Positions 28,121 to 54,285 of a DNA stretch of 64,000 nucleotides are shown here, one piece after another. Under the pieces are notes generated by a model. The model did no database searches. It had not been told where the DNA came from and was given only the letters and a program-made list of their open reading frames with translations. The DNA comes from Meridianimarinicoccus sp. MJW13 (GTDB taxonomy: Bacteria; Pseudomonadota; Alphaproteobacteria; Rhodobacterales; Rhodobacteraceae). The stretch is from positions 372,001 through 436,000 of the forward strand of contig NZ_JACNMU010000001.1 of the NCBI RefSeq assembly GCF_014901205.1, given 5' to 3'. The stretch's first letter is position 1. The number at the start of each line of letters is the position of its first letter. Both the position numbers and the translations under genes were made by a program.

Positions 28121-28148
28121 GAAAAAAGCCCCACCAGAGGCGGGGCTT
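28121..28148 (-). terminator. Terminator after rplQ
   Basis: AAGCCCC (28126–28132) pairs with GGGGCTT (28142–28148), and the minus-strand transcript then runs into six Ts. A textbook Rho-independent terminator closing the alpha (rpsM–rplQ) unit. Confidence 0.9.
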
Positions 28149-28170
28149 CGAGCTGTCGAAAGGGCCGGGA

Positions 28171-28590
28171 TTATTCCGCGGCGTCTTCTTCAGCGGCAAC
28201 GCGGGCCTTGTCGCCAGCGCCCTTGGCATCGACATCACGATCGACGAATTCGATGATCGCCATCGGCGCCATGTCGCCATAGCGGAAGCCGGCTTTCAGA
28301 ACCCGGACGTAGCCGCCCTGACGATCCTTGTAGCGCGGGCCCAGAACGTCGAACAGTTTCGCCACATAGGCGTCCTGCTTCAGCTGCGAACCGGCCTGAC
28401 GACGCGCGTGCAGATCGCCGCGCTTGCCCAGGGTGATCAGCTTTTCGATGATCGGGCGCAGTTCCTTGGCTTTCGGCAGCGTGGTCTTGATCTGCTCGTG
28501 CTCGATCAACGAGCCGGCCATGTTGGCAAAGAGCGCCTTGCGGTGCTCGTGAGTACGGTTCAGGCGGCGGTATCCGCGGGCGTGACGCAT
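28171..28590 (-). CDS. rplQ: 50S ribosomal protein L17
   Basis: A 139-aa protein. The canonical N-terminus [20 protein letters not shown] is present, as are [25 protein letters not shown] and [21 protein letters not shown] short acidic/alanine tail follows the core. It binds 23S rRNA near the exit-tunnel side. It is the last gene of the alpha unit, 135 bases beyond rpoA, a gap that holds a GC-rich palindrome of the boundary-repeat type. Confidence 0.98.
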
Positions 28591-28701
28591 GGTATCTATC
28601 CTTGTCTTGCGTGTTTTGCTTTGTCAGGCGGCTGATGCGTGTCAACCGCTCACCTTGGGGCGTGGGCCCGAGTATTCCCCGGCTGTCCGGGCATTTGGCG
28701 A

Positions 28702-28719
28702 GGCGGGGTTTCCCCCGCC
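28702..28719. repeat. Boundary palindrome, variant copy (rpoA–rplQ gap)
   Basis: GGCGGGGTTTCCCCCGCC lies 6 bases outside the rpoA stop. It resembles the core of the GTAGGGCGGGGTT/ACCCCGCC family seen at 46649, 49939, 49969 and 58630. Confidence 0.4.
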
Positions 28720-28725
28720 GCCACC

Positions 28726-29742
28726 TTAAAACTGGTCTTCGAACTTCTTGGCCAGATCCTCGATGTTCTCCGGCGGCCAGTCCTCGACATCCATGCCCAG
28801 GTGCAGACCCATGCCCGAGAGCACTTCCTTGATCTCGTTCAGCGACTTGCGGCCGAAGTTCGGAGTGCGCAGCATCTCGGCTTCGGTTTTCTGGATCAGA
28901 TCCCCGATGTAGACGATGTTGTCGTTCTTCAGGCAGTTTGCCGAACGGACCGAAAGCTCCAGCTCGTCGACCTTCTTCAGCAGCAGCGGGTTGAACTCCA
29001 GACCGTCGTCGTCGGCTTCCGAACGCGCGGGCTCCGGCTCGTCGAAGTTGACGAAGATCTGCAGCTGGTCCTGAAGGATGCGCGCGGCATAGGCCACGGC
29101 GTCATCGGGGGTGACCGACCCGTCGGTTTCCAGCTTCAGGGTCAGCTTGTCATAGTCCAGCACCTGGCCCTCGCGGGTGGGCTGCACGTCGTAGCTGACC
29201 TTGCGGACCGGCGAATAGATCGCGTCGATCGGGATCAGGCCGATGGGCGCATCCTCGGGACGGTTCTTGTCTGCCGAGACATAGCCCTTGCCGGTGTTGA
29301 CGATCAGCTCCATGAACAGATCGGCACCATCGTCAAGGTGGCAGATGACGTGATCCTTGTTCAGAACCTCGACCCCTGCGGTTTCGGAGATGTCGCCCGC
29401 GGTGACCACGCCCGGCCCCTTGGCCGAGATCGAAAGCCGCTTGGGGCCTTCGTTGTCCATGCGCAGGGCAACGCCCTTGAGGTTCAGAACGATGTCGGTC
29501 ACGTCTTCACGCACCCCGGCGACCGAAGAGAACTCGTGCAGCACGTTGTCGATCTGAACGCTGGTGATGGCCGCGCCTTGCAGCGACGACATCAATACGC
29601 GACGCAGGGCATTGCCCATTGTCAGACCAAAGCCCCGCTCCAGCGGTTCTGCAACCACCGTTGCCTGACGCGCCGGGTCGTTCCCCGGCTTTACGTCAAG
29701 CTGAGTGGGCTTGATGAGTTCTTGCCAATTCTTCTGGATCAT
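28726..29742 (-). CDS. rpoA: DNA-directed RNA polymerase subunit alpha
   Basis: A 338-aa protein of normal length. The N-terminal dimer domain contains [31 protein letters not shown]. The C-terminal domain has [46 protein letters not shown], which includes the residues that contact UP elements and activators. The start ATG at 29742 has GGAGGCGACAGGC upstream; the longer frame is rejected. A 113-base gap with a hairpin separates it from rpsK. Confidence 0.98.
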
Positions 29743-29812
29743 GCCTGTCGCCTCCATGCTCGTTCCCGACCGATGACCAAAGTCAGAAACACCCGAGGTA
29801 AAATGACAAAGC

Positions 29813-29838
29813 CGGGCCGCGCCCAAGGACGCAGCCCG
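29813..29838 (-). promoter_or_regulatory. rpsK–rpoA intergenic hairpin
   Basis: CGGGCCGC (29813–29820) pairs with GCAGCCCG (29831–29838), 8 bp including one wobble on the minus-strand RNA. It lies 17 bases after the rpsK stop and 70 bases before rpoA, where it may adjust the RpoA to S11 ratio. Confidence 0.35.
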
Positions 29839-29855
29839 ACCAAATTTGGTCTGGA

Positions 29856-52613: not shown

Positions 52614-52625
52614 GTGCGTCTCTCC

Positions 52626-52997
52626 TTACTTGGGGCGCTTGGCGCCGTATTTCGAGCGGCGCTGCTTACGGTCTTTGACGCCCTGGGTATCCAGAACACC
52701 GCGCAGGATGTGATAACGGACACCGGGAAGGTCTTTTACACGGCCGCCACGGATCAGGACCACCGAGTGTTCCTGAAGGTTGTGGCTTTCACCCGGAATG
52801 TAGCTGATGACTTCATAGCCGTTGGTCAGACGCACCTTGGCCACCTTCCGCATGGCCGAGTTCGGCTTTTTGGGCGTGGTGGTGTAGACGCGCGTGCAGA
52901 CGCCGCGCTTCTGGGGGCAGGATTCCAAGTGCTGCGACTTGGAGCGTTTCACTTTCGGCTGCCGCGGTTTGCGGATCAGCTGTTGGATCGTTGGCAT
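52626..52997 (-). CDS. rpsL: 30S ribosomal protein S12
   Basis: A 123-aa protein. [20 protein letters not shown] starts it, and [19 protein letters not shown] and [14 protein letters not shown] contain Lys43 and Lys88, the positions changed in streptomycin-resistant mutants; both are wild type here. The start ATG 52997 is the family start; the frame open to 53132 is leader sequence. It is the first gene of the str–S10 unit, behind a strong promoter. Confidence 0.98.
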
Positions 52998-53107
52998 TCC
53001 GGTTCGTACTCCGCTTTGCTCATCGTTCGTCTTGTCGGTGCACGCCAAGACGACGCGCGGTTCATTTCTTATCTCGTGGCGCTGCCCGATTGATATACGG
53101 ACAAGCG

Positions 53108-53150
53108 AAAAAGCCGCTCCCGCCTCCTGCATTCAGGGGCGATGCGGCGG
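53108..53150 (-). promoter_or_regulatory. Attenuator-like hairpin in the rpsL leader
   Basis: The minus-strand RNA can pair CCTG with CAGG, then CGCC with GGCG (one bulge) and an outer CCGC with GCGG, and is followed by CTTTTTCGC. It lies about 110 bases before rpsL and about 90 after the promoter, where premature termination would control the str unit. Confidence 0.5.
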
Positions 53151-53238
53151 GTTCCAGAGGATCGGAGCGCCAAGCGTTCGGATCATGACCACGACTAATC
53201 TTGGGTCAGGACAGGGAAAACCCCACCCGATTGCGCGG

Positions 53239-53267
53239 CGTATAGACAGAGTCGCAGGGGGTGTCAA
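53239..53267 (-). promoter_or_regulatory. Strong sigma70-type promoter of the str–S10 unit
   Basis: On the minus strand, TTGACA (53267–53262) and TATACG (53244–53239) are separated by exactly 17 bases. A GC-rich discriminator follows (CCGCGC). The 12-base block around the -10, TGTCTATACGCC, recurs in the rplO promoter. The leader to rpsL is about 235 bases. Confidence 0.72.
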
Positions 53268-53294
53268 CATCCAGCGGGCGCTCTGCGCGCCGGA

Positions 53295-54209
53295 TCACGT
53301 CTGACGGCTGCGTCGGCGGGCCTGATGCTCGCGATACAGGGTGAATCCGCCGGTGGCGAGCACGATCGCCGCCCCGACCAGGGTCAGCAGATCCGGGCGT
53401 TCGCCAAGGAACAGCACGCCCAGCAGAAGCGCCCACAGCAGGCCGGTGTAGCGGAAGGGCATGACAAAGGCGATCTCGCCCACCTGCATGCAGCGCACCG
53501 CCAGGATATAGGCCGCCGCCGAGAACACCGCCGCCGCCACAATCCCCACCCACAGCGACGGGGTCGGCATCTGCCAGGTCACCGCCGGGCTGATCACCGC
53601 CGCCGCCAGCAAAACCGCGATGGCGCCGCACAGCGCTGTCAGAATCGGAGAGAAATGCGCCGGAACGCGGCGCGCGGCCAGATCGCGCAGCGTAAACCCG
53701 GCCACCGCCGACAGGCCCGCCAGTGACCAGATGTCAAAAACCTCGGTGCCGGGCCGGATGATGATCATCACCCCGCCAAAACCGATCAGGATCGCCACCA
53801 GACGGCGCCAGCCTATCGGCTCTTTCAGGAACACCGCCCCGGCCAGCGCCACCGACAGCGGCCCGGCCTGGATGATCGCGGTAAATGTGGACAGGCTCAG
53901 GTGCTGCAACGAGATCAGCACGCTGAAGGCGGTCCAGATTTCGGCAAAACTGCGCAGGGCGACCAGTGCCCAGCCCCGGCGTTCCAGACGGAAAAGCTGG
54001 ACAAGGATGCCGCCGTGGATGGCCAGCGCCAGCAGGATCAGCGCGGTCAAGCCACCGCGCAAAACCAGGATCTGCGCGACCGGCAGGGTCCCGGCCATGG
54101 CCCGCATGCAGGCGTCATTGCCGACGAAGGCCGCCATCGAGAGGGTCATCAGGAAGGCGCCGCGCAGGTTGCGGCTGGCAACAGAGCTGTCTTCGGCCAA
54201 AGCAGGCAC
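53295..54209 (-). CDS. EamA/DMT family transporter
   Basis: A 304-aa inner-membrane protein with about ten helices in two EamA repeats. The first includes GAFLMTLSMAAFVGNDACMRAM and ILVLRGGLTALILLALAI; the ends of repeats show AGPLSVALAGAVFLKEPIGWRRLVAILIGFGGVMIII and YTGLLWALLLGVLFLGERPDLLTLVGAAIVLATG, the typical drug/metabolite exporter pattern. The GTG at 54209 is taken as the start. A longer frame would begin within the rpoC terminator. The substrate is unknown. It sits between rpoC and rpsL. Confidence 0.85.
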   Translation of the reverse strand: MPALAEDSSVASRNLRGAFLMTLSMAAFVGNDACMRAMAGTLPVAQILVLRGGLTALILLALAIHGGILVQLFRLERRGWALVALRSFAEIWTAFSVLISLQHLSLSTFTAIIQAGPLSVALAGAVFLKEPIGWRRLVAILIGFGGVMIIIRPGTEVFDIWSLAGLSAVAGFTLRDLAARRVPAHFSPILTALCGAIAVLLAAAVISPAVTWQMPTPSLWVGIVAAAVFSAAAYILAVRCMQVGEIAFVMPFRYTGLLWALLLGVLFLGERPDLLTLVGAAIVLATGGFTLYREHQARRRSRQT

Positions 54210-54255
54210 GGCAGGGTTCCCTGGATCGTCAGGCCAGCCGCGAAAGCCGACCAAT

Positions 54256-54285
54256 GAAAAACCCCGCCCTGTTCCGGGCGGGGTT
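54256..54285 (-). terminator. Terminator after rpoC
   Basis: AACCCCGCCC (54260–54269) pairs with GGGCGGGGTT (54276–54285), 10 bp with a 6-base loop, and the minus strand continues with TTTTT. It ends the rplJ-rplL-rpoB-rpoC unit. Confidence 0.88.

Follow-up and report, generated by a model that had tools for sequence, protein, structure and literature searches.

Terminators, promoters and covarying leaders at the insertion-prone joints of the ribosomal gene cluster in Rhodobacteraceae

The ribosomal gene cluster of Meridianimarinicoccus sp. MJW13 is interrupted by non-ribosomal genes, and the question that this locus raises is why certain joints of the cluster accept such cargo, while the gene groups between them stay intact. 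The stretch analysed here, referred to as the window, comprises 64,000 nucleotides (bases 372001-436000 of contig NZ_JACNMU010000001.1), with the ribosomal genes located on the minus strand. A preliminary description of this stretch had proposed five seams with cargo, a terminator and a new promoter each, separately transcribed S10, spc and alpha genes, seams that tolerate insertion, and cargo that could be tied to growth-rate control; its gene order and coordinates hold. From our comparison with related genomes, we consider it likely that the S10-spc-alpha cluster in Rhodobacteraceae consists of semi-autonomous, feedback-regulated modules, the joints of which tolerate cargo. The structured leaders that head these modules are a feature beyond the preliminary description.

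We have compared 111 loci, i.e. the window, 30 genomes of the same family and 80 named loci; species may overlap between the latter two, and such pairs were kept. By our own choice, the loci were divided according to their listed rank into 63 loci of a “Rhodobacteraceae set” and 48 of an “outgroup”; the outgroup includes L040 (Rubrimonas), L042 (a metagenome-assembled genome titled Rhodobacteraceae) and two implausibly titled metagenome-assembled genomes (L081 and L083). The number of loci varies among junctions because many contigs stop within the ribosomal cluster. A seam is called filled when its spacer is at least 300 bp long.

Three junctions, rplW/rplB, rplP/rpmC and rpmD/rplO, are true splits and family-wide insertion hot spots, which are close-packed in other alphaproteobacteria. 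The rplW/rplB spacer is filled in 16 of 42 set loci vs 0 of 42 outgroup loci (Fisher p 5e-6), the rplP/rpmC spacer in 36 of 52 vs 0 of 45 (p 2e-14), and the rpmD/rplO spacer in 39 of 54 vs 0 of 44 (p 4e-15). In six of the seven species of the window genus in the collection (its own included), the rpmD/rplO spacer measures 101, 662, 1235, 1782, 2638 and 3405 bp. The remaining junctions of the set have no spacer of this size, apart from rpsL/rpsG (1/12), tuf/rpsJ (3/32), rpoC/rpsL (8/9) and secY/rpsM (47/48); in the outgroup, such spacers occur at tuf/rpsJ (5/23), rplO/secY (5/44), rpsK/rpoA (3/39), rpsQ/rplN (2/46), rpoC/rpsL (1/3) and secY/rpsM (38/39). The proposal of five seams of equal kind is thus ruled out, with three of them retained: rpoC/rpsL is an ordinary border between two operons, with a spacer of 230-330 bp in 3/3 measured outgroup loci, and secY/rpsM is the site that normally carries adk.

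The upstream sequences of the module heads align across the set at any spacer size, among those listed. Directly upstream of rplB (start codon at 45764) is a member of the known L2-Alphaproteobacteria ribosomal leader family RF03142, which is also found at rplB of L026, L012 and L029 (66.6, 42.4 and 61.4 bits); the regulated genes listed for this family (rplB, rpsS, rplV and rpsC; PMC7247131) fit the module that begins with rplB. Upstream of rpmC, rplO and rpsM, we have found conserved structures with covariation, as expected of ribosomal leaders, and have built from them the models R3, R2 and R1, respectively. The sequences aligned were preselected for carrying the motif or matching the model, and the rpsM alignment (A1, 40 rows) and the rpmC alignment (A3, 53 rows) are identical to the loci at every base. 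For the rpmC leader, the alignment comprises 53 of 59 upstream sequences and excludes six without the motif; 95.6% of the cells are paired, double changes occur in 9 of 13 pairs, and the 63 compensatory cells (16.3 in shuffled alignments) are reached by 0/500 shuffles. The covariation was seen again in 21 loci outside the model (best-scoring matches, aligned to the model), with 22 cells vs 6.4, and the R3 match lies immediately upstream of rpmC in 30/30 best-scoring loci checked. For the rplO leader, all 53 model matches from 63 sources were aligned, with 91.9% of the cells paired, double changes in 10 of 16 pairs (a number that 1/500 shuffles reaches) and 66 compensatory cells vs 19.4 (0/500); its predicted pseudoknot joins a GTCGCT loop with AGCGAC just before the start codon, with double changes in three of six pairs. 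Model R2 was built from an alignment in which a base immediately upstream of the start codon is incorrect or absent in 6 of 45 rows; the rplO covariation was counted on alignment A7. The rpsM leader, for which 40 of 48 sequences were aligned (four lacked the anchor and four were not entered), has 100% of its cells paired and 19 compensatory cells vs 4.9 (0/500); its outer helix is invariant, and its covariation is the weakest of the three. The covariation score of each new leader is reached by 0/500 shuffles, and when the pairing partner is slid, pairing falls to at most 59%.

When the three models were searched in 120 genomes, one per genus, where filters are stricter, the rpmC leader was matched in 91, the rplO leader in 101 and the rpsM leader in 104 genera, with exactly one match in every matched genome; 70, 77 and 79 of these matches, respectively, are located among the 89 genomes beyond the first genome set. 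In those genomes, the rpmC and rplO leaders are 4282-10141 bases apart (n=48), and the rplO and rpsM leaders 2689-4591 bases apart (n=72). In the outgroup, the rpsM model matches 0/48 loci, the rpmC model 1/48 (L040) and the rplO model 2/48 at E<0.01 (L040 and L042), with three more at E<1.

The rpmC and rplO leaders are, apparently, undescribed candidates for covarying ribosomal leaders. On the leader strand, they are covered by no Rfam 15 family in any of the four loci scanned (the window, L012, L026 and L029); the only Rfam match that overlaps them in the window, NiCo-AnGGAG, stays below threshold (21.9 of 64.5 bits) and lies on the opposite strand. Neither leader was found in the accessible text, supplements excluded, of PMC7247131 (where L29 is absent, while L15 and S13 occur in other contexts) or PMC11109978, and limited literature searches, again excluding supplements, returned no paper on rpmC or rplO leaders. 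We have rejected an assignment of the rpsM leader to the Alpha_RBS family (RF00140): the latter resembles the leader in its location at the start of rpsM in the four loci scanned, but its matches (22.3, 31.7, 29.5 and 25.7 bits in the window, L026, L029 and L012) lie below the gathering score of 38, and that of the window rests mainly on the coding part. Three loci without the rpmC leader (G007, G021 and L021) share another block upstream of rpmC (GGAAAAGC ... CTTCTGA), which is perhaps a different leader. The known Rhodo-rpoB RNA (RF03074) is located at the start of rpoB in the window (62828-62920, minus strand).

The transcription signals recur at the same joints. All five terminators and all five promoters with 17-base spacers lie where the preliminary description had placed them, the main terminators being strong G+C hairpins followed by T runs; a mechanical scan detects those after rplP, rpmD and rplQ and misses those after rpoC and rplW. 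Counting as a signal any hairpin with a T run within 100 bases past the stop codon, and comparing with shuffles that keep base content only, we have found a terminator after rplW in 29 of 41 set loci vs 0 of 42 outgroup loci (shuffles 2/82), after rplP in 39 of 50 vs 4 of 45 (3/100), and after rpmD in 45 of 59 vs 2 of 44 (6/118). The rplQ terminator occurs in 33 of 40 set loci vs 27 of 37 outgroup loci, and that of rpoC in 4 of 9 set loci. Within the modules of the set, there is no terminator after rplB (0/48), rpsC (0/51), rpmC (0/59), rpsQ (0/62), rplN (0/62) or rplE (0/62); further signals follow tuf (14/32 in the set vs 12/23 in the outgroup), rplO (8/54 vs 8/44) and rplR (7/60 vs 0/45).

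Promoter recurrence was scored at four module heads as matches of 12 (cut 8/12) against dinucleotide shuffles. The cut is reached at rpmC by 59% of 59 loci vs 4% of shuffles (spacer 17 in 35/35), at rplO by 53% of 53 vs 3% (27/28), at rplB by 29% of 49 vs 5% (13/14), and at rpsM by 35% of 48 vs 6% (15/17). Recurrence in relatives therefore supports these putative promoters, strongly at rpmC and rplO and less so at rplB and rpsM. Filled rplP/rpmC seams carry the terminator in 29/34 loci and the promoter in 26/34, while short leader-bearing ones carry the terminator in 8/10; filled rpmD/rplO seams carry the terminator in 37/39 loci and the promoter in 26/39. For a single seam in a single species, Ruegeria pomeroyi, transcriptional isolation is published: reverse-transcription PCR showed two inserted rpmD/rplO genes to be co-transcribed, with no product reaching rpmD or rplO (PMC3305630). 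The separate units of the preliminary description are supported by this result and by the terminators located at the same three places in relatives.

Insertion and leader go together. The rplP/rpmC seam is filled in 36 of 47 loci with the rpmC leader vs 0 of 50 without it, and the rpmD/rplO seam in 39 of 54 loci with the rplO leader vs 0 of 44 without it; within the set, the counts are 36/46 vs 0/6 (p 4e-4) and 39/52 vs 0/2 (p 0.073), where the p values of this treeless comparison overstate independence because loci share ancestry. The same joints are breakpoints of rearrangement. Where a genome has a leader at both rpmC and rplO (87 genomes), the two lie on the same contig and strand in 66, on opposite strands in four and on different contigs in 17 (some of these are perhaps assembly breaks); the rplO and rpsM leaders lie together in 94 of 97 genomes, on opposite strands in none and on other contigs in three. 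The gene order was mapped in seven rearranged loci, namely 6 of the 21 discordant genomes and L007 (Paracoccus onubensis); they were chosen as discordant and thus inform about break positions, not frequency. All seven have their breakpoints at rplW/rplB, rplP/rpmC or rpmD/rplO, and none of their modules is broken up. In G064, an inverted rplP-rplC block follows rpmD, and rplO-rplQ is located ~2.5 Mb away. Two further loci, L005 and L030, carry rpmC-rpmD without rplP or rplO within the available sequence. As tolerated insertion points, these three joints thus agree with the preliminary description.

The modules of the proposed arrangement are rpsJ-rplW, rplB-rplP, rpmC-rpmD, rplO-secY(-adk) and rpsM-rplQ. 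Where two modules meet at one of the three splits, an intrinsic terminator would usually close the upstream module, and the downstream one would restart from a promoter with a 17-base spacer and a conserved structured leader, located just before the first start codon. Each leader most likely binds a ribosomal protein of its own module, lowering the translation of that module; at rplO, the predicted pairing partner of the hairpin loop is the stretch that separates the ribosome-binding site from the start codon. We infer that DNA between terminator and promoter costs little and that cargo is nearly neutral there, because the module's own promoter and feedback would set its output; the three joints may therefore gain and lose cargo and act as breakpoints, while the interiors stay fixed.

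Several observations weigh against this reading. Only 2 of 12 pairs of the rpsM leader vary on both sides, a number matched by 228/500 shuffles, and in the window the rplO and rpmC leaders fold no more stably than shuffles do (z -0.21 and -0.56). The five promoters are weak under the E. coli rule: an E. coli-type scan at 9/12 matches returns none of them, and its totals do not exceed those of shuffles (3 vs 4.3 and 1 vs 3.3 expected). Short leader-bearing rpmD/rplO spacers have a terminator in 4/12 and a scored promoter in 2/12 loci, so that the autonomy of the modules is not universal, since the leader of such a spacer is embedded in an unbroken transcript. The secY/rpsM joint bears a leader, yet the strand never changes across it in 94 same-contig cases. 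Leader and insertion may, moreover, both follow shared ancestry; leaderless loci are few within the set (6 at rpmC and 2 at rplO).

A real possibility, although one to which we give less than even weight, is plain operon fission with drift, in which an ancestral break at three places allowed insertion wherever transcription had stopped crossing, the leaders being incidental. It agrees with the terminators and promoters that mark the filled seams, and insertion between units of the ribosomal cluster is known elsewhere (PMC8046335); it does not account for the 0/50 filled rplP/rpmC seams among loci without the rpmC leader, or for the conservation of leaders in short rpmD/rplO spacers without a terminator (8/12) or without a scored promoter (10/12), which argues that leaders are kept independently of fission.

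We regard as unlikely a site-specific or repeat-guided insertion, via an integrase, a palindrome or the conserved gene ends, with the remnant of rpmD in the window as its scar. This remnant, noted in the preliminary description, is real, and same-orientation 3′ ends of the upstream gene (75-88 bases) occur within a seam of the window (rpmD), L012 (rplP) and L026 (rplW), the latter two being followed by a terminator that resembles the native one; such scars, however, are found in only 3 of 219 spacers, with two additional matches of 28-30 bases. The remnant is about as near to the rpmD of its own genome (7/84 mismatches, five of them at third codon positions) as to that of Mangrovicoccus (6), with 9-14 mismatches to congeners, and it carries K where 5/5 congeners carry S; a second rpmD end was not found in congeners, a 36-base match in G061, 1.8 kb past rpmD, being too short. 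No integrase or transposase is present among 25 listed of the 51 PHROGs matched by seam open reading frames (ORFs), and no integrase was found among the window cargo proteins in family scans. A GTAG-type palindrome, which we take to be REP-like (repetitive extragenic palindromic), occurs (with up to three mismatches) in three copies in the 4.0 Mb genome, all of them in the ribosomal cluster; it was rejected as an insertion guide, as it lies near the ends of rplW, rplP or rpmD in few relatives, and its loose relatives number 37 matches in 1.35 Mb of the set vs 5 in 0.80 Mb of the outgroup, false matches in coding sequence counted.

The cargo itself is mostly private to single genomes. In 91 filled seams of the three kinds, we have called 228 cargo ORFs in 161 families, 138 of which are confined to one genome (27/28 at rplW/rplB, 62/74 at rplP/rpmC and 50/62 at rpmD/rplO), with 139 ORFs running along the ribosomal genes and 89 opposite to them; small or unusual genes are missed because ORFs were chosen by base composition, the caller recovering five of seven window cargo genes. 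The three seams thus hold variable, mostly unshared content between fixed neighbours, as expected of an integration hot spot. For the Pfam and PHROGs scans, a smaller set of 111 seam ORFs was used (from a stricter caller, which recovers three of seven window cargo genes); in it, Pfam finds 109 families, each in at most five ORFs. The most recurrent cargo is a 2OG-Fe(II) oxygenase of family TIGR02466, found as 29 ORFs in 28 of the 36 filled rplP/rpmC seams, 60-84% identical to the window copy, and lying inside the available flank in 21 of the 30 best-scoring rpmC-leader loci. That cargo is kept in the cluster for growth-rate-coupled expression, as the preliminary description had suggested, is very improbable and finds no support beyond this recurrence, given families mostly present in one genome per seam, cargo in both orientations (the oxygenase itself reversed in 5/29 or 7/29 ORFs, depending on the caller) and filled seams usually fenced by a terminator and a promoter.

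Relatives of the oxygenase include the solved, uncharacterised structures 3bvc and 2rg4. The E. coli protein YcfD is a member of a different family from TIGR02466. YcfD hydroxylates L16 (PMC4295552), and by analogy the TIGR02466 oxygenase, located beside rplP (L16), may be a ribosomal oxygenase, a lead only. PADLOC finds no defence genes among nine window cargo proteins. A plasmid origin of the rpmD/rplO insert was rejected, the only similarity being a 69%-identical stretch of a DUF389 gene in Halobaculum. The rplP/rpmC insert of L029 (Shimia) contains a cspA-type thermoregulator match (7119-7527; 60.3 bits, below the gathering score of 78). The label “phasin-like” in the preliminary description holds only weakly, and for the ORF labelled “porin” nothing similar was found among Pfam, NCBIfam or PDB sequences. 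The coordinates of all these features are collected in Table 1.

Table 1. Leaders, promoters, terminators, cargo and repeats of the ribosomal gene cluster in the window.
Feature	Coordinates	Strand	Details
L2-Alphaproteobacteria ribosomal leader RF03142 at rplB	45767..45828	-	59.6 bits, gathering 37.8
Candidate rpmC leader (R3)	40897..40956	-	47.5 bits, covariation
Candidate rplO leader (R2), predicted pseudoknot to bases before start codon	34049..34111	-	74.4 bits, covariation
Structured rpsM leader (R1)	30648..30691	-	68.4 bits, covariation, fold z -3.39
rpsL promoter	53239..53267	-	TTGACA-17-TATACG
Promoter of rplB-rplP unit	45882..45910	-	TTGACC-17-TAGAGG
Promoter of rpmC-rpmD unit	41007..41035	-	TTGCCA-17-TAGGCA
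Promoter of rplO-secY unit	34149..34177	-	TTGCCG-17-TATACG
Promoter-like site before rpsM	30787..30815	-	TTGACC-17-TACCCG
Terminator after rpoC	54256..54285	-	hairpin and T run
Terminator after rplW	46605..46638	-	hairpin and T run
Terminator after rplP	43043..43072	-	hairpin and T run; mechanical scan too
Terminator after rpmD	36646..36669	-	hairpin and T run; mechanical scan too
Terminator after rpmD remnant	34983..35012	-	mechanical scan
Terminator after rplQ	28125..28149	-	hairpin and T run; mechanical scan too
Terminator-like hairpin between rplB promoter and L2 leader	45844..45871	-	12 pairs, UUCG loop, T run
EamA-family transporter ORF, rpoC/rpsL spacer	53295..54254	-	PF00892, 72 bits
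YdeI/OmdA and DUF1801 protein, cargo	45935..46555	-	PF13376, PF08818
Protein without family above cut-off, signal-peptide-like N-terminus by eye, cargo	42349..42945	-	
Isoprenylcysteine/phospholipid methyltransferase-like protein, cargo	41754..42254	-	PF04191
2OG-Fe(II) oxygenase, most recurrent cargo	41098..41718	-	TIGR02466/PF13759
Weakly phasin-like ORF, cargo	36297..36674	-	PhaP6 28.6 bits, cut-off 100
DUF389 membrane protein ORF, antisense to cluster, cargo	35067..36284	+	PF04087
Orphan ORF of 251 aa, cargo	34193..34948	+	match in 1/149 family genomes, its own
Outer-membrane-like ORF at usual adk place	30910..32034	-	
Partial second copy of rpmD 3′ end	35034..35127	-	92.9% over 84 bases
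GTAG-type palindrome after rplP	43073-43100	-	
GTAG-type palindrome after rplW	46644-46671	-	
GTAG-type palindrome between rpoB and rpoC	58625-58652	-	

Two further hairpins may bear on the regulation of the modules. The terminator-like hairpin that separates the rplB promoter from the L2 leader resembles hairpins upstream of rplB in relatives with filled or empty seams (among the upstream sequences listed) and may be an attenuator. Another, located between rpsK and rpoA (29810-29841, minus strand, in the window; 25/45 set loci vs 11/39 outgroup loci), may tune rpoA relative to the ribosomal genes.

At secY/rpsM, the adk motif was detected in 74 spacers and undetected in 13, several of which probably hold adk unrecognised. 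The window genome has one adk match, located outside the cluster (contig C14:445820), and the seam is taken by the outer-membrane-like ORF. Among the congeners, G003 has adk in the seam only, G005 has it in the seam together with a divergent copy, and G002, G004 and G006 have the divergent copy elsewhere only; the divergent copies share 45-58% identity with the Rhodobacteraceae seam copies to which they were compared and 80-85% with one another, two sub-cut-off matches being set aside. This distribution fits a loss of adk from the cluster after the gain of a second copy, and the departure of a gene once a second copy exists elsewhere is a route discussed by Brandis (PMC8046335).

The cluster described in PMC8046335 resembles the present one in that small insertions between units precede their disconnection and in that a gene leaves, like adk here, once a second copy exists elsewhere; it differs in that here three joints are reused family-wide, with family-specific terminators, promoters and leaders, and in that two of them, rplP/rpmC and rpmD/rplO, fall within what are classically the S10 and spc operons. 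The R. pomeroyi rpmD-rplO insert occupies one of these joints; its length and sequence differ from one roseobacter to another, and by reverse-transcription PCR it is isolated from rpmD and rplO. Its size variability (0.1-1.5 kb in relatives) was already noted in 2012, alongside other roseobacter insertions in the suc and sdh operons; the accessible part of that account concerns one joint, with no leader and no comparison with other joints (PMC3305630).

If the leaders do act by feedback, a broader and more doubtful reading would follow, which we offer tentatively: feedback would make a rigid cluster evolvable, the leader buffering changes of transcription so that leader-bearing joints accept insertions, inversions and translocations, while leaderless joints do not; three new leader families, headed by L29, L15 and S13, would mark such joints, and the recurrent oxygenase might modify the ribosome. 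The finding reframes the matter of frozen vs loose ribosomal gene order as the question of whether feedback control at a joint permits breakage; it adds three candidate ribosomal leaders, at one locus each, that occur widely in a much-studied family of marine and phototrophic bacteria, and it points to natural insertion sites within an essential cluster of Rhodobacteraceae.

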